Shown piece by piece: positions 16,443 through 63,816 of a stretch of DNA of 64,000 bases (position 1 is the first letter of the stretch; the number at the start of each line of letters is the position of its first letter). The stretch comes from an uncultured Mycoplasmatota bacterium (GTDB taxonomy: Bacteria; Bacillota_I; Bacilli_A; RF39; UBA660). A model generated the notes under the pieces. It saw only the letters and a program-made list of their open reading frames with translations. It had not been told where the DNA came from and searched no databases. Both the position numbers and the translations under genes were made by a program. Location: assembly GCA_948470005.1 (NCBI GenBank), contig CAOKNI010000003.1:1-64000 (forward strand), given 5' to 3'.

Positions 16443-16898
16443 ATGAATTATGGCGAAAAAATGAAGGAAATAAGAAGCGAAAGTAATAGCTTACAAAAAG
16501 ATATAGCTAAAGTATTAAACATATCCATATACACTTATAGCCACTATGAAACAAAAGATGCAATTATCCTTATTAAACATTTAATAAATTTTTGTAATTA
16601 TTTTAAAAACTCACTAGATTACATATTAAGCCTATCAAATGAAAAGGAATATTCTAATATAACTAAAGAAACAAATCTAAAAGTAGCTGGGCAAAGACTA
16701 AAAACCTTTCGAAAAGAGCAGAAAATCACTCAAAATAGATTAGCCAAAGAATTAAATACTACTCCAGGTGTAATTGCTAATTATGAACGTGGTAGAACTC
16801 TTATAGCTACACCCTTTTTATATACTATATGTTTAAAATATAATGTATCCGCAGATTACTTAATTGGTAGAATTGATAATCCTAAATATTTAAAATAA
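16443..16898 (+). CDS. XRE-family regulator with two tandem HTH domains
   Basis: 151 residues made of two Cro/C1-type HTH domains in the same orientation: residues about 5-65 (SLQKDIAKVLNISIYTYSHY) and about 83-145 (ITQNRLAKELNTTPGVIANYERG, NVSADYLIGRIDNPKYL). The second keeps the better consensus; the first looks degenerate. A GGTGA site precedes the ATG. It is divergent from the decayed surface-protein copy and upstream of sRNA/peptide locus B on the same strand. A near-identical architecture is found at 51959 and 63355. The target is inferred, not shown. Confidence 0.85.
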   Translation: MNYGEKMKEIRSESNSLQKDIAKVLNISIYTYSHYETKDAIILIKHLINFCNYFKNSLDYILSLSNEKEYSNITKETNLKVAGQRLKTFRKEQKITQNRLAKELNTTPGVIANYERGRTLIATPFLYTICLKYNVSADYLIGRIDNPKYLK

Positions 16899-24666: not shown

Positions 24667-26214
24667 TTATGCAAAATCGTAAAACATAGCCCATTTTGGC
24701 ACTTTTACTGTATACTTACTACTTACGTTTTTCTTGGTACCTTTAGTAAACTTTTCATTAATATTTACTACGTAAGCTTTACTATAATCATAATTATAAA
24801 ATACCACACTCAAAGGTAAAGTTCTTTTACCATCAGACTTTTTATATTTATAATCTATTTTAAGTTCATATTTAGAGCTTGACTTTCTAGTCATTTTAAC
24901 ATTTTTTATTTCGGCATCAGCATATTCATTATAATAAATCGCCCCGCCATAATATTTACTTAAAATACTTTTATCATAGAAAGCACTATAATGAGATGTT
25001 AATCTAAAAGTCATATCTTCTTCAATATTTTTAATTTCCAGTTTTAAATTTTTAATACTACTATATTTTGATTTAGTTTTATCTAAAACTGCTCTTACTT
25101 TATAAAAATATTTCTTACCATATGTTCCTTTTACAACACACTTACTTTTCTTGGTGGTACAAACTTTTTTATATTTACCATCTTTCTTTGTTGCTTGATA
25201 AATTTCATAAGAAATATTTTTACTCATATTAGTTATTTCAATTGTTTGATTATCATTACCACTATTATAAATATTAAAAGTTGGCACTGCTAAAGTTGAT
25301 TTAATTTTAGAAGATGCACCATTGCCTGATTTAACTCCATTATACACTAATACTGACCGATAATAATAAGTAGTGCCAAGTTTTGCATCTTTAATTGTAT
25401 CTGTATATTCTGCATCACTATATAAACTTATATTTTTAAGTGTTTTAATTTTTGTCCATTTCTTATTATCAGTAGAACGATAAATATCTACATTAGCTTT
25501 TTTACCGCTTGGAAGTGAACTTCCATCATAAGTTTTAGGTGCTTTTATCACCAATTTATTTTTATCATAATTTAAAGCTTTAATTGTAATGCCTGGCGCC
25601 TCAGGTTTATATGTATAACTAATAATTTTATAATCACTATATACATCTTTATTACCATTATATTTCTTTATCCTAAGGGCATATTTATGCGTTCCATAAT
25701 CGACATATGATAAATTATATTTACTACTATGCATGGTATTAATTTTTCGATAATTATTACCTTCAATTTCATATAATTCATAATAATAATCTGCTACATA
25801 ATTAGTAATATTAATTTCTAAACCTCTTGTATAATTCTTTAATTTTTTTATTGTAAAATTAGGTGCGGCAATGGTTTTAATAGGATAAACATTTTTATAA
25901 TTATAAGAAGTAATATAATAATCTTGACCATTTACCTTTTTAACAGCTTCTACTTCATAAGCATAAGAACTATTCTTATCTAATTTTTTATCGACATACT
26001 TTAAAGTACTAACTTTAGTTATTTCTTTAAAAGTACCACCATTATCACTCCGACGTATTATATATTGATATGCTCCAACATCATTATAACTAACAGTAAC
26101 TTCCCCATTAGCAGTTACTTCTGGGTTTACTGTAATCTTATCTGCATCTTGGGCCCATACTTTTATAGGCATTACCAAAAACAATACGGCTAAAAAATAA
26201 ATAATTTTTTTCAT
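24667..26214 (-). CDS. Secreted FN3-like repeat protein, paralog 1
   Basis: 515 residues with a signal peptide (MKKIIYFLAVLFLVMPIKVWA). The mature part is a chain of beta-rich modules like fibronectin type III domains, each with a pattern such as NSSYAYEVEAVKKVNG, TYYYRSVLVYNG and KYFYKVRAVLDKTKSKYSS, and a C-terminal domain ending SKYTVKVPKWAMFYDFA. No sorting signal or membrane anchor is seen, so it is probably released or bound to the wall. It is a tandem duplicate of the next gene, with the same architecture throughout. Confidence 0.78.
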   Translation of the reverse strand: MKKIIYFLAVLFLVMPIKVWAQDADKITVNPEVTANGEVTVSYNDVGAYQYIIRRSDNGGTFKEITKVSTLKYVDKKLDKNSSYAYEVEAVKKVNGQDYYITSYNYKNVYPIKTIAAPNFTIKKLKNYTRGLEINITNYVADYYYELYEIEGNNYRKINTMHSSKYNLSYVDYGTHKYALRIKKYNGNKDVYSDYKIISYTYKPEAPGITIKALNYDKNKLVIKAPKTYDGSSLPSGKKANVDIYRSTDNKKWTKIKTLKNISLYSDAEYTDTIKDAKLGTTYYYRSVLVYNGVKSGNGASSKIKSTLAVPTFNIYNSGNDNQTIEITNMSKNISYEIYQATKKDGKYKKVCTTKKSKCVVKGTYGKKYFYKVRAVLDKTKSKYSSIKNLKLEIKNIEEDMTFRLTSHYSAFYDKSILSKYYGGAIYYNEYADAEIKNVKMTRKSSSKYELKIDYKYKKSDGKRTLPLSVVFYNYDYSKAYVVNINEKFTKGTKKNVSSKYTVKVPKWAMFYDFA

Positions 26215-26276: not shown

Positions 26277-27857
26277 TTAATTAATTTCAAAATATGTTGC
26301 CCATTTAGGTATTTTTACTGTATATTTACTTGTTGTATTTTTCTTTGTACCTTTACTAAATTTTTCATTTAGTGTTACTACATATGCTTTACTTTGGTCA
26401 TAATTATAAACAGTCAAGTAAACTGGCATTGTTTTCTTTGCATCAGTTTTCTTTTCTTTATAATCAATTTTAACTTCAAATTTAGACATATTGCCACCTG
26501 ATTTTTTAGTTAAAGTAACCTTTTTAATTTTAGCTTCAGCATAATTATTATAGTAAACATAACCACCATAATATTTAGTTAAAGATGTTTTACCTGTATA
26601 TCTATTGTAAGTTGAAGCAAGTAAAAGCTCTTTTTCTTCAATCAAACTTTTCATTTCTAATTTAAGATTTTTAATCTCACTATATTTAGATTTTGTACTA
26701 CCGAGTATTGCTCTTACTTTATAGAAATACTTTTTATTCATAGTTGCTTTTACATCACATTTACCATTTTTAGTTGTACAAACCTTCGTATATTTACCAT
26801 CTTTTTTAGTAGCTTGGTAAATTTCATACTTAACATTTTTACCTGTATTAGTTACTTCAATAGTTTGTTTATCGTTATAACTATTATAAATTTCAAAAGT
26901 AGGTTTTGTTAAAGCTGACTTAATATTAACAGCCTTACCATTACCAGACTTTGTTCCTTCATAATTTAAAACTGCTCTATAATAGTATTTCTTTCCTAAT
27001 TTTGCATCTTTAATTGTATCTGTATAAGTTGTTCCTGCATAAGAACTTACTTTAACAGTTTTAATTTTTGTCCATTCTTTATTATCAATAGAACGATAAA
27101 TATCTACTTTAATATTATCACTATAATTTACACTACTACCACTATAAGTTTTAGGTGCTGCAATAACAATTTCATTTTTATCATAGTTTATAGCATTAAT
27201 TTTTAATACTGGTGCTTCTGGAGCATACGTATAATTTACTTTTGTATAACCACTATATACATCTTTTAGACCATTATATAATTTTGCTCTAACCGCATAA
27301 GTATGTTTACCATAAGATGTGTTATATGCTGTAGCATTCAAATTATAAGAACTTGCAGTTGTAATCAAATTATATTTACCACTTGCATCTACTTCATATA
27401 TTTCATAAGAAGTTGCTCCTGCGACTGCTTTAATATTAAATTCTAAAGATGTGTAACCAACTTTTGATTTCTTAATACTAAACTTTGGCGCTGCAAGAGT
27501 CTTTATTGGAGTAATACCATTATTAATATAAACATTTTTTTCTGTATTACTCTTTTTTGCTGTAACATAGTAATAATATAGTCCGTCAGTTTTTAATCCT
27601 TTATCTGTATAAGTAGTCGTCTTAATTTCTGCTACTTGTTTATAGTTACTTCCATCATTACTATTTTGGCGATAAATCGTATAACTATCTGCGGTTGCAC
27701 CACTTAAAGTAAGTTTGATTTCCCCATTATTAGTTACATCAGCTTTTAATGTAAGCTTACTTAAATCTACCTCCTCTCCACTAGCTGTTGCGGCATTTAC
27801 TGTCGATGGCATCACTACTAGCATGAGTGCCATTAGAAAATAAATAATCTTTTTCAT
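26277..27857 (-). CDS. Secreted FN3-like repeat protein, paralog 2
   Basis: 526 residues, signal peptide MKKIIYFLMALMLVVMPSTVNA, then the same series of beta modules as paralog 1 (GLYYYYVTAKKSN, KYYYRAVLNYEGTKSGNG, KYFYKVRAILGSTKSKYSE) and the same C-terminal domain (SKYTVKIPKWATYFEIN). One CTTKNGKC pair may form a disulfide; paralog 1 has CTTKKSKC. Upstream gene of the pair; a GGCTT/AAGCC inverted repeat lies between the two. Confidence 0.78.
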   Translation of the reverse strand: MKKIIYFLMALMLVVMPSTVNAATASGEEVDLSKLTLKADVTNNGEIKLTLSGATADSYTIYRQNSNDGSNYKQVAEIKTTTYTDKGLKTDGLYYYYVTAKKSNTEKNVYINNGITPIKTLAAPKFSIKKSKVGYTSLEFNIKAVAGATSYEIYEVDASGKYNLITTASSYNLNATAYNTSYGKHTYAVRAKLYNGLKDVYSGYTKVNYTYAPEAPVLKINAINYDKNEIVIAAPKTYSGSSVNYSDNIKVDIYRSIDNKEWTKIKTVKVSSYAGTTYTDTIKDAKLGKKYYYRAVLNYEGTKSGNGKAVNIKSALTKPTFEIYNSYNDKQTIEVTNTGKNVKYEIYQATKKDGKYTKVCTTKNGKCDVKATMNKKYFYKVRAILGSTKSKYSEIKNLKLEMKSLIEEKELLLASTYNRYTGKTSLTKYYGGYVYYNNYAEAKIKKVTLTKKSGGNMSKFEVKIDYKEKKTDAKKTMPVYLTVYNYDQSKAYVVTLNEKFSKGTKKNTTSKYTVKIPKWATYFEIN

Positions 27858-51795: not shown

Positions 51796-51958
51796 TGATT
51801 ATCCCTCCAACATATGCTAGCCAATTATATTAGAATTTTCTAGCTTATATTGAAATTATAATATTAACTATAATAAAAGTCAAGAAAAACTTTGGTATTT
51901 CTCAAGTTTTTTGGTTTGCTCCAATTTGTCTGTGATAATATTGATTGGTGAAATATTT

Positions 51959-52414
51959 ATGATAAATACTGAAAGATTAAAAGATATAAGAGAAAATTTA
52001 AACTTAACTCAAGCAGATATAAGTAAGCAATTAAATATAAGTTCAAGTGCTTACGCTAGATACGAAAATGAAAATGATATATTTCCCATAAAGCATCTAA
52101 TTAGTGTATGTGATTATTTAAATATATCAATAGACTATATTTTAGGCTTAAATGATAAAATAAAATATTCTAATGCCAAAAAAGCTATTGATAAAAAACT
52201 TGCTAGTTTAAGATTAAAAGAATTTCGCAAAGATAATAAAATTACTCAAGACAAACTAAGTTCCATTTTAAACTGTTCTTATGGAACTATCGCTGGCTAT
52301 GAAAGCGGAAGATATATTATCGCTACCCCTTTTCTTTATACTATTTGTAAAAAATATGATATATCCGCTGATTACTTACTTGGTAAAATAGACACTCCTA
52401 AATACCTAAAATAA
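51959..52414 (+). CDS. XRE-family regulator with two tandem HTH domains, beside the intact surface protein
   Basis: 151 residues from the ATG at 51959 (GGTGA 8 nt upstream; an upstream TTG start adds 16 residues without a site). Two same-orientation HTH domains: LTQADISKQLNISSSAYARYEN and ITQDKLSSILNCSYGTIAGYESG, ending ADYLLGKIDTPKYLK, nearly the same as the protein at 16443. Promoter-like TTGGTT-17-GATAAT lies upstream. The intergenic region with GCTAGCCAATTATATTAGAA is shared with the 16-kb locus. Probably controls the divergent surface-protein gene. Confidence 0.85.
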   Translation: MINTERLKDIRENLNLTQADISKQLNISSSAYARYENENDIFPIKHLISVCDYLNISIDYILGLNDKIKYSNAKKAIDKKLASLRLKEFRKDNKITQDKLSSILNCSYGTIAGYESGRYIIATPFLYTICKKYDISADYLLGKIDTPKYLK

Positions 52415-59812: not shown

Positions 59813-60028
59813 TTACGTGTTTTTTTCATCAGTTTTAACAGTTCCATCACCTATGTTATCCCCATTATCTAAGTGATAACTTTCTAATTCCGTTTTAATA
59901 TCATTTTTTAAAGCATTTAAAAATGTTTTCTTATAATTATTAACCATCATAATTGTAAACATTCCTAATATAAATACTGAAAGAAATGTATAAACCATAT
60001 ACATTGAAAGAAAACCACGCTTTTTCAT
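59813..60028 (-). CDS. 71-residue membrane protein, pilin-like or possible immunity protein
   Basis: Starts MKKRGFLSMYMVYTFLSVFI at 60028 (GGTGA 5 nt upstream): a basic head, Gly-Phe, and a single hydrophobic helix, followed by a charged tail with DNGDNIGDGT. The head is like a minor pilin (ComGG type) but the Glu at +5 is missing. Because it lies just after the bacteriocin-like genes it could also be a self-immunity protein, yet a terminator separates it from them and it has its own TATAAT box. Function open. Confidence 0.5.
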   Translation of the reverse strand: MKKRGFLSMYMVYTFLSVFILGMFTIMMVNNYKKTFLNALKNDIKTELESYHLDNGDNIGDGTVKTDEKNT

Positions 60029-60084
60029 ATACTTCACCATATCAATTATACCAAATAAAAGCTTTTTTCTAAATACTATAATTA

Positions 60085-60109
60085 GAAAAAGTTTGGAATG
60101 TCCAAACTT
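60085..60109 (-). terminator. Terminator of the bacteriocin-like operon
   Basis: AAGTTTGG-ACATT-CCAAACTT followed by TTTCTAAT on the minus strand, 3 nt after the third precursor's stop. Confidence 0.85.
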
Positions 60110-60112
60110 AAC

Positions 60113-60277
60113 CTATCTAGCGCGGCACACATTTTTAGTGAAAGCTCGACGGAGTGTTGTTCCTACCATCTTGCCAATATCTATTACAATTGATAAAATA
60201 CGTGCGGCCGCATTTATCATCGTAGCATTAATTGCTCCACCAGAAATATTTATTAATTCTTGATTTTCTAGTAACAT
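60113..60277 (-). CDS. Double-glycine bacteriocin-like precursor 3
   Basis: 54 residues. Leader MLLENQELINISGG has the classical pattern: Leu at -12, Glu at -8, Leu at -7, Ile at -4, Gly-Gly at -2/-1. The core of 40 residues (AINATMINAAARILSIVIDI, continuing to a TLRRAF segment and CRAR) is amphipathic and cationic, with one Cys. AGGTGT site 8 nt before the ATG lies inside the end of precursor 2. Likely exported and cut by the C39 transporter upstream in the operon. Confidence 0.75.
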   Translation of the reverse strand: MLLENQELINISGGAINATMINAAARILSIVIDIGKMVGTTLRRAFTKNVCRAR

Positions 60278-60278
60278 A

Positions 60279-60416
60279 TTAATTACACCTATTAGGATTT
60301 ATAAAGCCATAGATTACCGAAGCTAAGAAAACCGCTCCCATAACTATCCCACCTAATATTCCAAAAGAAATGCCGCCATTTGTATTTTGTAATTCTTCTG
60401 TAGTTAATCTTACCAT
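60279..60416 (-). CDS. Double-glycine bacteriocin-like precursor 2
   Basis: 45 residues. Leader MVRLTTEELQNTNGG has Leu at -12, Glu at -8, Leu at -7 and Gly-Gly. The 30-residue core ISFGILGGIVMGAVFLASVI is strongly hydrophobic with Gly-x-x-Gly motifs like two-peptide (class IIb) bacteriocins, and ends NPNRCN. It starts 1 nt after the precursor 1 stop and ends 1 nt before the precursor 3 start, so translation is probably coupled. Confidence 0.75.
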   Translation of the reverse strand: MVRLTTEELQNTNGGISFGILGGIVMGAVFLASVIYGFINPNRCN

Positions 60417-60417
60417 G

Positions 60418-60549
60418 CTATCTTCTCACTTTTCTAAATGATTTAATTAATCGTGTAAGACTAATAAGGCTAATAAATAAATTTGCCGCAAAACCTATTA
60501 AACTACCTCCCTCACATTTTAATAATTTTTCACTACTTAATTTTTCCAT
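60418..60549 (-). CDS. Double-glycine bacteriocin-like precursor 1
   Basis: 43 residues. Leader MEKLSSEKLLKCEGG has Leu at -12, Leu at -7 and Gly-Gly. The 28-residue core starts SLIGFAANLFISLISL and ends in a highly basic RLIKSFRKVRR tail, an amphipathic cationic helix. AAGGGA lies about 12 nt before the ATG. First of three precursors. Confidence 0.75.
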   Translation of the reverse strand: MEKLSSEKLLKCEGGSLIGFAANLFISLISLTRLIKSFRKVRR

Positions 60550-60565
60550 TCTTATAATTCCCTTT

Positions 60566-60976
60566 CTAAAACATCATTTTTAATATTTTTAAAATTATTC
60601 TTTGTTTATTATAATAAAAATTTAAATTAACTATTTCCGAATCTTGTAATTCTAAGTCGGTTTTTAAAGTTATTTCATAATAACTAATATAGTTATCCTT
60701 ATCAACTTTTAGTTCTTTTTCTAATTCTTCATAATTAATAAAATTTTTATTTAAAGCAATTTTTTCATAAGATATACTACTCGGAATAAGCGTTGTAATT
60801 AAACACTCTTGCTCACAAGTAACAATCCCTTTTGCTTCAACATGATTATAGGTAAAATTAAAGGATATTCCTATTATAATGCTTATAAAGAAGAGGACAA
60901 ATATCATTATAGCTAAACCTATTTTACAAGGTTTAAGCTTTATAAATGCTTCCTTATTATTATACATATTAACCAT
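60566..60976 (-). CDS. Bacteriocin-export accessory protein, short HlyD-like
   Basis: 136 residues from the ATG at 60976 (AGGTG before it; a GTG three codons earlier overlaps it). It has a basic cytoplasmic head, one membrane helix (IGLAIMIFVLFFISIIIGIS) and about 90 extracytoplasmic residues with GIVTCEQECLI, two close Cys. Position between a C39 exporter and the precursor genes and its topology suggest the membrane-fusion/accessory subunit, though it is much shorter than typical HlyD proteins. Its start overlaps the end of the transporter gene. Confidence 0.6.
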   Translation of the reverse strand: MVNMYNNKEAFIKLKPCKIGLAIMIFVLFFISIIIGISFNFTYNHVEAKGIVTCEQECLITTLIPSSISYEKIALNKNFINYEELEKELKVDKDNYISYYEITLKTDLELQDSEIVNLNFYYNKQRIILKILKMMF

Positions 60977-63026
60977 TTTTTTCACCTACATTTATTATTT
61001 TACTAAATTTATCAGCTACATTTTTGTGCGTCACATAAATAAGAGTTTCTTTCTCGTAATTACGAAAAATATTATCTAATATTTCTTTTTCCATTGTCTC
61101 ATTAACTTCACTTAAAGCTTCATCTAAAATAAGAATTTTTGACTTTTTTAGTAATGCTCGGGCTAAAATAATTCTTTGTTTCTCTCCTCCACTCAAATTA
61201 TTTAAGCTAGCATTAATAAGTGTGTTATAACGATTAGGTTTCTTCTCAACTATTTCATCAATTTTACATATTTTTAAAACTTTTAAATAATCCTCTTCTA
61301 AAACTTCCCGATAGCATTTGATATTATCTATAATCGTCCCTGTAAACAAAGTTTCTTCTTGCCCAACATATAAAACGTTTTTTCTTATTGCATCTAAATT
61401 ATAATCATTTTCACTCGCATCATTAATTTTAATTTTTCCAGAATAATTGGAATAATTACGATACAATAAATTGCAAATAGTGCTTTTACCACTACCACTT
61501 GGACCTGAAAGCAAAACTTTTTCACCAGGTTTAATTTGAAAATTAATATCAGTTAAAATATTCGAAAACTTATTATAAGAATAACTAACATTTTCCATAG
61601 ATAGTAACGGATTTTCAAGTTTATTTAAACCATCATTACTACTTTCTGGTGCTATATTAATGAACTCACTAATTTTTTTAAATGCTACCTTTAAATAATT
61701 ATACTTAGGTATTAAATCAATTGTACTTTTAATAGGATCAAATAAATATAAAATAATACTATTAAAGGTTACTAAATTTAGAATTTCTAACTCTCCTTTA
61801 GCTATCAAATAAATTCCCAAAGTTGTTATCGCAAATAAACCCATTTCATAAATAAAGTTTTTTAAAGTTTCGATATTGTTAAAAAAATGTTGGAGTTTGA
61901 AATTATCCTTAAGCATTAAAATTAATTTATCTTCTAATCTTCTTAAAAACTCATTAGTTAAATTTAAATTTTTAATACTAGTATTCATCTCAATATTTTC
62001 CACTAAAACGGAATTAAAATTTGTGGACACTAAAACATTTCTTTCTAACTTCTGATAAATAAGTTTGCTAAAGACTAAACCTGCTAAAATATAAATGCCA
62101 ATTACTAAACAAAGAACTAAAAATAAACGAGCATTTATAAAATATAACACAATAGTCGCTGCAACCATCAAAATAGAATTAAGAATAATATTAGTAAAAA
62201 TATCAGCAATTAAATTTTTAAGTTCATTTAATTCTTGTGTTCTTGTAACAATTTCTCCTGTCGTTCTATTTTGCATAAATTTTAAAGGGAGAAAAAAGAT
62301 ATGTTTAAAAAAACTATAAAAAATATTAGTATCTAAATTTTTATTCAAATAATTTAAATAATAGTTTTTGGCATAATCTAATATTACTTTAAACAAAAAT
62401 AGAAAAAAGAAAATTACTACTATAAATTTAATAAAATTTATATTTGTTCCATCTTGAATACCTGAAATTGCAATCTGAAAATAAAAATTACCCAAAATTG
62501 AAATTATCATAAAAACAATACTAACTAATATAATTTTAATAAAAAGAGATTTATTTTGATTAATTAAGTTTATAAAAACATCTTTAATGGTTAAAGTATT
62601 TTCCATATTTACTATATCAGTCACAGGGGACAATAAAATTATAATATTATCCCAAATTTTTAGAAATTCAGCTAACTTTAATTTTACTTTTCCTTTGGCC
62701 GGATCCATAAGCCAAACACCAGTTTTACTAATTTTATAGATAACCGCAAAATGTTGCAATCCATTTGGCATCTGTAAATGCACAATAGCCGGTAAATAGA
62801 TTTGGGGGTCCAAAATATTATCTACCTTCATCCCTACAGCATCAAAGCCATAACTTTTAGCTGCATTGATTAAATGGTAAGCCGTTGTTCCATTTCCATT
62901 AGTAACCGTATCTTCTCTAATTTTTTCAATTGGAACGTAACCTTTATAATATTTAATAATACAAGATAAAGAACACGCCCCACAATCTTTTAGATCTAAC
63001 TGTTTTTCAATGTCAATTTTACTCAT
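60969..63026 (-). CDS. Bacteriocin-processing ABC exporter with C39 peptidase domain
   Basis: 685 residues from the ATG at 63026 (GGGAG 8 nt upstream). Residues 1-130 are the C39 peptidase that cuts after Gly-Gly: Cys15 (LKDCGACSLS), His92 (GLQHFAVIY), Asp108 (WLMDPAKGK). Then six membrane helices and an ATPase with Walker A SGPSGSGKST, signature LSGGEKQRI and Walker B ILILDEALSE. Such proteins remove the leader and export the peptide in one complex. First gene of the operon with the accessory protein and three precursors. Confidence 0.93.
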   Translation of the reverse strand: MSKIDIEKQLDLKDCGACSLSCIIKYYKGYVPIEKIREDTVTNGNGTTAYHLINAAKSYGFDAVGMKVDNILDPQIYLPAIVHLQMPNGLQHFAVIYKISKTGVWLMDPAKGKVKLKLAEFLKIWDNIIILLSPVTDIVNMENTLTIKDVFINLINQNKSLFIKIILVSIVFMIISILGNFYFQIAISGIQDGTNINFIKFIVVIFFFLFLFKVILDYAKNYYLNYLNKNLDTNIFYSFFKHIFFLPLKFMQNRTTGEIVTRTQELNELKNLIADIFTNIILNSILMVAATIVLYFINARLFLVLCLVIGIYILAGLVFSKLIYQKLERNVLVSTNFNSVLVENIEMNTSIKNLNLTNEFLRRLEDKLILMLKDNFKLQHFFNNIETLKNFIYEMGLFAITTLGIYLIAKGELEILNLVTFNSIILYLFDPIKSTIDLIPKYNYLKVAFKKISEFINIAPESSNDGLNKLENPLLSMENVSYSYNKFSNILTDINFQIKPGEKVLLSGPSGSGKSTICNLLYRNYSNYSGKIKINDASENDYNLDAIRKNVLYVGQEETLFTGTIIDNIKCYREVLEEDYLKVLKICKIDEIVEKKPNRYNTLINASLNNLSGGEKQRIILARALLKKSKILILDEALSEVNETMEKEILDNIFRNYEKETLIYVTHKNVADKFSKIINVGEKNG

Positions 63027-63094
63027 ACCAATTTCTCCCTTCACCTTTATATATTACCAGTACCACCTCGATTTCCTTTATTTTTTTTGCATCA

Positions 63095-63155
63095 GGTATA
63101 CAAAAATAGATATTCTCGACACGTCTCGACAAAACTTCGTATAATTCGAGTTTTA
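63095..63155. repeat. Shared regulatory block, copy C
   Basis: Same block as at 4390 and 17196: GGTATACAAAAATAGATATT, a perfect TCGACA-N4-TCGACA direct repeat (63116-63131), and CTTCGTATAATTCGAGTTTT. It lies 70 bp upstream of the bacteriocin exporter start. Plus strand TCGACA-18-TATAAT and minus strand TTGTCG-18-TATTTT are possible promoters towards the regulator and towards the exporter. The rest of 63045-63354 is AT-rich without a gene. Confidence 0.72.
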
Positions 63156-63286: not shown

Positions 63287-63328
63287 TCGACACCATTCGA
63301 CAAGATTTCAGAAAATTTAGTATATAAT
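63287..63328 (+). promoter_or_regulatory. Promoter and operator of the third double-HTH regulator
   Basis: TCGACA (63287-63292) and TCGACA (63297-63302) are 10 bp apart; TATATAAT (63321-63328) follows 18 bp after the second. The repeat overlaps the -35 region, so autoregulation by the downstream gene is likely. Confidence 0.65.
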
Positions 63329-63354: not shown

Positions 63355-63816
63355 ATGCAAAATGGAGAATTAATCCAAACTTTACGCATCAAAAACAAAT
63401 TAAAACAAAAAGATATGGCTGATCTATTAAATGTTAAAGTCGGAACTTATAAAATGTATGAAAATAATATTCGCCTAATGAAACTTTATGAATTAAACAT
63501 TATCAGTAATTATTTCCATGTTTCTATAGATGCCTTATTATCACTAAAACGAAACCAAATTTTAACTAACGTTTGTGACAGAATTAATTATAAATTCTTA
63601 AAATTTAAATTAAAACTTATTCGTAAAAGCAACCATTTAACTCAAAAAGAATTAGCCAAAGAATTTAATATAGCTGTCAACTTAGTTTCTAAATATGAAA
63701 ATAAACCCCAATTTATTAGTTTAAATTATCTTTATTTATTTGCAAAAAAATTTGATGTATCTGTCGATTATATGTGTGGTAAAACCACAAAAAAAGAAAT
63801 TTTTAGTCTGATTTAA
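63355..63816 (+). CDS. XRE-family regulator with two tandem HTH domains, beside the bacteriocin-like operon
   Basis: 153 residues with a strong AAAGGAGG site. Two same-orientation HTH domains: LKQKDMADLLNVKVGTYKMY and LTQKELAKEFNIAVNLVSKYEN, ending VSVDYMCGKTTKKEIF. Same architecture as the regulators at 16443 and 51959 but more diverged. It faces the bacteriocin operon head to head, and both promoters carry the TCGACA direct repeat. Convergent overlap of 14 bp with the transporter gene at its 3' end. Confidence 0.87.
   Translation: MQNGELIQTLRIKNKLKQKDMADLLNVKVGTYKMYENNIRLMKLYELNIISNYFHVSIDALLSLKRNQILTNVCDRINYKFLKFKLKLIRKSNHLTQKELAKEFNIAVNLVSKYENKPQFISLNYLYLFAKKFDVSVDYMCGKTTKKEIFSLI

Follow-up and report, generated by a model that had tools for sequence, protein, structure and literature searches.

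The 64,000-nucleotide window considered here is the stretch from position 1 to 64,000 (forward strand) of contig CAOKNI010000003.1, GenBank assembly GCA_948470005.1, from an uncultured Mycoplasmatota bacterium. Towards its end the minus strand carries an operon with, in this order, a C39-peptidase ATP-binding cassette (ABC) exporter, a small accessory protein and three short precursor peptides, p1, p2 and p3 (Table 1). In our opinion p2 and p3 would form a class IIb-like two-peptide bacteriocin that is a core trait of one bacterial order, is tied to a sigma-H/competence programme and has a function comparable to that of CibAB of streptococci; we put the probability of this reading at about one half. 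Its basis is what can be observed directly: the operon and its leaders, the protease residues of the exporter, the conserved p2/p3 pair, the joint cysteine states of the two peptides, and a promoter element common with comEA and dnaG.

We searched for the exporter in 385 genomes of one order, that of genome G001 (the genome of locus L006), whose initiation factor IF-2 is 62% identical to that of the window. Matches at E <= 1e-60 occur in 325 of these genomes, many of which could be any peptidase-containing ABC transporter (PCAT). A group of 21 exporters is set apart at 56-65% identity, the next ones reaching 47% at most. Within the genus of the nearest genome, 34 of 36 genomes have the exporter (E <= 1e-120), two of the copies being cut; a sample of the family has it in 2 of 145 at E <= 1e-200. 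A single-protein genome scan with the exporter gave no ortholog, its 19 loci being distant, with best segments of 23-32% identity, and the relatives in a plasmid collection, among the 5000 best records, are all under 60% identical.

We then read 111 loci: the window, 30 from the exporter search and 80 of the 81 that rank next, G286 being left out. The order p2-p3 is kept in 109 of them, with p3 truncated by the end of the contig at L038; at L105 and L131 there is a p2 without a p3. In 20 wide regions of 10 to 18 kb (15 from genomes outside the 111 loci, five shared) the pair adjoins a PCAT every time, while the neighbouring genes differ and the chromosomal sites are varied; some copies adjoin sporulation-like or pilus-like genes, as recognised by eye. 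A profile of 63 p3 rows matches 359 of the 385 order genomes. Class-wide, the same profile matches 52 of 395 sampled genomes, of which 51 are members of the order and the last, G440, is a weak match (27.7 bits, profile positions 2-30). Phylum-wide there are 22 matches in 392 genomes: 19 order members and three weak ones of 26-28 bits, two covering profile positions 2-30 and one (G821) 2-46. The pair is close to universal in one order and, as sampled with a profile that was built from order members and could miss distant relatives elsewhere, nearly confined to that order. The short genomes and the genes that look like sporulation genes would point to RF39, RFN20 or ML615J-28, uncultured orders treated in PMC10868615. 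Beside these standard arrangements, L052, L059, L064, L068 and L074 have two tandem p2-p3 pairs behind one exporter, and L044 and L054 have an extra double-glycine peptide.

The frames are also under purifying selection. Pooled over 17 close locus pairs, the ratio of nonsynonymous to synonymous divergence (dN/dS) is 0.15/0.67 = 0.23 for p2 (639 codons) and 0.085/0.73 = 0.12 for p3 (900 codons), comparisons without a found start codon having dropped out. For p1, dN is below dS in close pairwise comparisons, bar one identical pair. All three frames are beyond chance, since homologous ones recur at corresponding places in relatives and their dN lies well under dS. Poor conservation in related strains had been named in the original prediction as one result that would speak against it; we looked for it and it did not appear.

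That prediction, made from the letters of the window, described three adjacent double-glycine precursors separated by 1-nt gaps, and the open reading frames (ORFs) and leaders indeed read so. All three leaders end in GG with Leu at -12 and -7, those of p2 and p3 have Glu at -8, and the gap from stop to start is 1 nt for p1/p2 and for p2/p3. The cores have the lengths given for them, 28, 30 and 40 residues, with net charges of +6, +1 and +6. What had not been described is the 139-residue accessory protein between exporter and precursors, a GxxxG in the p2 core besides its GxxG, and a single C-terminal Cys in each of p2 and p3. The proposal of a multi-peptide set holds in part: a bacteriocin is plausible, but the three peptides are not equivalents, p2 and p3 being an order-wide unit and p1 an addition seen in the window's genus only (in 29 of the 30 genus loci read; it is absent in L040). 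A protein search with p1 returned two relatives. It would act as a genus-specific third component. Many p1 leaders in the window and its genus have a Cys at -4 (..KCEGG), and several p1 cores start with Cys.

The cores had been called unrecognised, which is right for p1 (no match in a family profile scan) and, by cut-off, for p3, but not wholly for p2. Against the NCBIfam model TIGR03949, which describes the class IIb lactobin A/cerein 7B family, the p2 of the window scores 23.3 bits with a cut-off of 21.5, and so by score falls in a described bacteriocin family, the match spanning residues 3-30, leader included. The window's p3 stays under the cut-off of this model with 15.1 bits, and far under that of NF038035 with 12.6 bits against 37. 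Family members match more widely by an E threshold of 0.1, which is not a curated cut-off: 52 of 62 p2 members match TIGR03949, while NF038034 and NF038035, the models of the lactococcin G/enterocin 1071 kind, are matched by 43 and 16 of 62 p2 members and by 21 and 8 of 63 p3 members. The two family profiles were separated on cores, as shared leaders draw both families together. One p2 relative bears the source name of a lactobin A/cerein 7B-type bacteriocin family; among the p3 matches listed, a source name is given for just one, and it reads hypothetical. Neither profile found anything below E 0.2 among solved structures. A further likeness to class IIb bacteriocins is the arrangement itself, two different peptides with double-glycine leaders side by side and with GxxxG or GxxxG-like motifs in both. 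The strict motif is found in p3 of 154 and in p2 of 128 out of 155 distinct pairs, and a GxxxG-like one in both peptides of every pair.

The cysteines of p2 and p3 go together. A short tail with a Cys is found at the end of most p2 cores, and of most p3 cores as well. In the 155 distinct pairs a C-terminal Cys is present in both peptides of 134, in neither of 20, in p2 only of one and in p3 only of none; in 113 complete pairs (L038 left out) these numbers are 97, 15, one (L095) and none. A Cys inside the (I/V)FCG of some p2 peptides was not scored as C-terminal. Exactly one Cys per core is found in 116 of the 134 pairs in which both have it. On the exporter tree, three changes are needed for p2 and four for p3, and the three independent contrasts are all concordant. 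Of the tandem arrangements, those of L052, L059, L064 and L074 combine a first pair that has both C-terminal cysteines with a second that has none, and at L068 both pairs are without them. Since the C-terminal cysteines are kept or lost jointly, a disulfide between p2 and p3 suggests itself, the alternative being that the tails were lost jointly for some other reason. According to PMC10059821, disulfide formation by single cysteines is unreported in bacteriocins. L051, L057 and L063 have no C-terminal Cys in either peptide and have internal ones instead, GIFCG or GVFCG in p2 and DIGCQIG or DIGCQVG in p3, which are perhaps a relocated cross-link.

A further line of evidence is the promoter. Of the 111 loci, 109 could be examined for the element AAAGGAAAT. 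Counting sites 74-100 nt ahead of the exporter's DCG codon, 92 of these loci have it when one mismatch is allowed and 66 have it exactly; shuffles give 2.6%, and a control stretch matched at 3 of 108. About 12 bases past it there is a consensus GGnAATA or a variant. In 13 of 28 order genomes the exact element is also found 25-75 nt ahead of comEA, compared with 1 of 976 other ORFs (28 of 30 comEA loci entered; pattern-picked loci and exporters were excluded). Near dnaG it is found exactly in 16 of 30 loci, 15 of them at one distance, with 0.8% in shuffles, and in the window's own genus it stands at the consistent distance in 5 of 7 dnaG loci. In Listeria, according to PMC4754846, sigma-H controls comEABC and dnaG-rpoD, the -35 signals being for example AAAGGATTT, AAAGGAATT and GAAGGACTT and the -10 signals for example GGCGAAT; a term search of PMC3364868 found no consensus. 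Judged by sequence, the promoter element of the exporter is common to comEA and dnaG, genes that are sigma-H-dependent elsewhere, and the controlling factor may well be a sigma-H. The sigma-H model TIGR02859 matches 40 of 40 order genomes, 38 of them near-full-length at E <= 5.2e-17, and ComEA exceeds its own cut-off in 36 of 40. A pattern search found the same promoter-like element before nuclease genes at L248 and L250, which we take to be PD-(D/E)XK/Rpn-like.

The exporter had been described as a C39-peptidase ABC protein of the same operon that keeps Cys, His and Asp, and this is borne out. The Pfam C39, ABC membrane and ABC ATPase domains are all over their cut-offs in a single chain, and alignment to the solved protease of PCAT1, presumably that of Clostridium thermocellum, has Gln, Cys, His and Asp retained, which we assume to be the catalytic residues. 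The likeness to PCAT1 (E about 1e-102) and to ComA (E about 1e-89) is full-length; the difference is that the exporter stays below the cut-off of TIGR01193, the model for peptide cleavage/export ABC transporters, with 389.1 bits against 523.85. One in-frame stop was flagged in each of three relatives' exporters (G009, G148 and G243). Among the closest known systems for the accessory protein are the membrane fusion proteins MacA, MexA, BesA and CusB, whose barrel its beta domain appears to resemble; it is probably a minimal membrane-fusion-like adaptor of the exporter, and a Foldseek search with it gave no confident fold.

Taken together, the system might work as follows. A sigma factor of the sigma-H type would transcribe the PCAT, the accessory, p1 where present, p2 and p3 on entry into a sigma-H state such as starvation or competence. 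The PCAT would cleave the leaders after Gly-Gly and export the cores with the help of the small adaptor. Outside, p2 and p3 would act as one unit, two membrane helices packing via their GxxxG faces and linked by the single C-terminal cysteines, and would permeabilise membranes in the manner of a class IIb agent. Neighbouring cells would probably be killed or made leaky, with DNA or nutrients freed, as with CibAB in pneumococcus.

CibAB is described as a two-peptide bacteriocin induced by ComX alongside the late competence genes (PMC5295010), and CibAB and CabAB of streptococci are likewise two small exported peptides that act as a pair under a competence sigma factor (ComX/SigX). GxxxG motifs are stated for CabAB (PMC13059744), and p2 and p3 both have them. 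The promoter element common with comEA is a further likeness. The systems are likened here by description and not by peptide sequence, and they differ in that our operon has its own exporter and no recognised CibC-like immunity gene, in the single C-terminal Cys per peptide that is jointly kept or lost, and in conservation across an order. Our literature search found no description of this operon system, within the texts it reached; the IIBacFinder survey, which we know through the commentary PMC12648078, may contain the peptides. Four points appear to be new: that the pair is a core trait of a whole order, that its cysteines go together, that the promoter is of the sigma-H type, and that no immunity gene was recognised.

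Several results weigh against the bacteriocin reading or against its parts. The absence of a clear immunity gene inside the operon, already pointed out in the original prediction, holds (none was recognised), and none was seen to recur beside it in 20 contexts inspected by eye, ORFs under 80 residues not being listed. Near-universal conservation is unusual for bacteriocins. As to regulation, none of the seven comEA genes from the window's genus has the element (one had no more than 67 bases of upstream sequence), nor do the GspE/ComGA-like genes (0 of 6). Taken by itself, the window gives the element no significance (one match, reached in 11 of 100 shuffles). Genome-wide the pattern was found 23 times against 17 in a reversed control (12 genomes), and because it barely exceeds that control we base the dnaG claim on 30 loci that were not picked by pattern. 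No sigma-H-like protein passes the TIGR02859 cut-off (0 of 40), and the model also matches 10 of 14 control genomes. As to the cysteines, three tree-independent joint changes are too few for significance (sign test, p = 0.25), and one pair, L095, is discordant. A Fisher test on the 155 distinct pairs takes no account of their relatedness, and we do not count it as proof.

On immunity, known immunity proteins can be as short as 42 residues with one membrane segment (PMC8538875), and the one-helix accessory, where present, could serve as one. L045, L046, L047 and L050 have an extra ORF of 50-52 residues right after p3, with a membrane helix and then LGRIVGT or a variant, like the GxxxG segment of p3; it is a candidate immunity peptide or decoy in that sub-lineage. 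On conservation, the S. mitis Cab variants each occur in under 10% while cibABC is universal in S. pneumoniae, according to PMC13059744. Still, two points speak most strongly against the reading, namely that no immunity gene was seen and that conservation is near-universal, and because of them two other explanations stay alive. We would go further within the bacteriocin reading only tentatively, to a conserved, disulfide-joined heterodimeric pore former that is order-wide, linked to sigma-H and competence, vertically inherited rather than mobile, and without a dedicated immunity protein.

The first of the two explanations is that the peptides serve as pheromones outside the cell, in a circuit that includes the divergent regulator of Table 1, and that nothing is killed. 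The relatives of the exporter include the pheromone exporter ComA, no immunity gene was seen to recur, and order-wide conservation with purifying selection agrees with it, as do the regulator and the conserved TGTCGA site at the operon in the genus. We consider it rather unlikely: with their GxxxG helices, their joint cysteines and a length of about 30-40 residues the cores suit a membrane heterodimer better than a pheromone, the regulator is seen by the operon in the genus while the peptides are order-wide, and no histidine kinase was noticed in the contexts read (by eye, no family search).

The second explanation, to which we give a similarly low chance, is that the pair does housekeeping work on the envelope of the producer itself while a sigma-H developmental programme (competence or sporulation) runs, for instance as a pore or an aid to DNA uptake. 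It would account for a pair that is near-universal in the order, with the exporter in nearly every genome of the genus, for the unseen immunity gene, for a promoter element in common with comEA and dnaG, and for those copies beside sporulation-like or pilus-like genes. On the other side, the chromosomal position varies, the leader-removing export and the similarity of p2 to a bacteriocin family point outward, and we know of no competence or sporulation factor of this kind.

Independent one-peptide bacteriocins that share one exporter are very improbable: a variable, genus-only p1, five loci with two pairs and the extra peptides at L044 and L054 would fit them, but p2 and p3 are adjacent and in one order at nearly all loci and change their Cys state jointly. 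Spurious small ORFs, which short frames in an AT-rich genome might otherwise suggest, can be dismissed in view of homology, constant order and place in many genomes and a dN well below dS for p1, p2 and p3.

Table 1. Features of the p1-p2-p3 operon and its immediate surroundings (window positions)
Feature	Position	Strand	Remarks
p1, double-glycine precursor, 43 aa	60418..60549	-	leader MEKLSSEKLLKCEGG, 28-residue cationic core; seen in the genus only
p2, double-glycine precursor, 45 aa	60279..60416	-	30-residue hydrophobic core, C-terminal ..YGFINPNRCN; order-wide family
p3, double-glycine precursor, 54 aa	60113..60277	-	40-residue cationic core, GKMVG (GxxxG), C-terminal Cys; order-wide family
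accessory, 139 aa	60566..60985	-	one transmembrane helix and a beta domain apparently like a membrane-fusion-protein barrel; probable mini adaptor of the exporter
C39-peptidase ABC exporter (PCAT), 685 aa	60969..63026	-	alternative start 63044
sigma-H-like promoter	63052..63079	-	AAAGGAAAT then GGTAATA; basis is conservation
putative operator copy 1	63287..63302	.	direct repeat TGTCGA..TGTCGA, 10-bp spacing, read on the minus strand
putative operator copy 2	63116..63131	.	identical direct repeat, upstream of the promoter
divergent regulator, two tandem helix-turn-helix domains	63355..63816	+	adjoins the operon in 31 genus loci read, window included
terminator-like hairpin	60089..60109	-	immediately 3' of p3

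Locally, the divergent regulator faces the operon in the window and in the 30 other genus loci read. The sequence TGTCGA is found at a fixed place in all 30 upstream stretches read (L041 was dropped) and is repeated 10 bp on in part of them; two tandem helix-turn-helix domains that read a direct repeat would make sense. Two more regulators of this double type, akin to it by eye, lie at 16443-16898 and 51911-52414 of the window. As to the 3' end, two terminator-like sites were found in the window with 0.9 expected in shuffles. Beyond the one after p3 there is a 75-residue one-helix protein (59813-60040, minus strand) whose start (KRGF..) is prepilin-like and which may be a minor competence pilin; a short gene that resembles it sits 3' of the operon in at least six genus loci. 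We considered it as an immunity gene and rejected it for its position beyond the terminator-like site and its prepilin look. Elsewhere in the window, the adjacent frames 24667-26214 and 26277-27857 encode similar secreted-looking proteins of about 520 residues, by eye an apparent tandem duplication.

Bacteriocins are commonly regarded as accessory traits with a patchy distribution. In this order of small-genome bacteria nearly every sampled member has a bacteriocin-like pair, whose promoter is of the type also found at a DNA-uptake gene and at the gene for the replication primase. Its joint cysteine pattern suggests a covalent two-peptide toxin. Gene calling with a length filter can also miss peptides of this family. 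If our reading is true, it would give a way into what such bacteria do to their neighbours, and into a link between competence and killing in poorly studied lineages.

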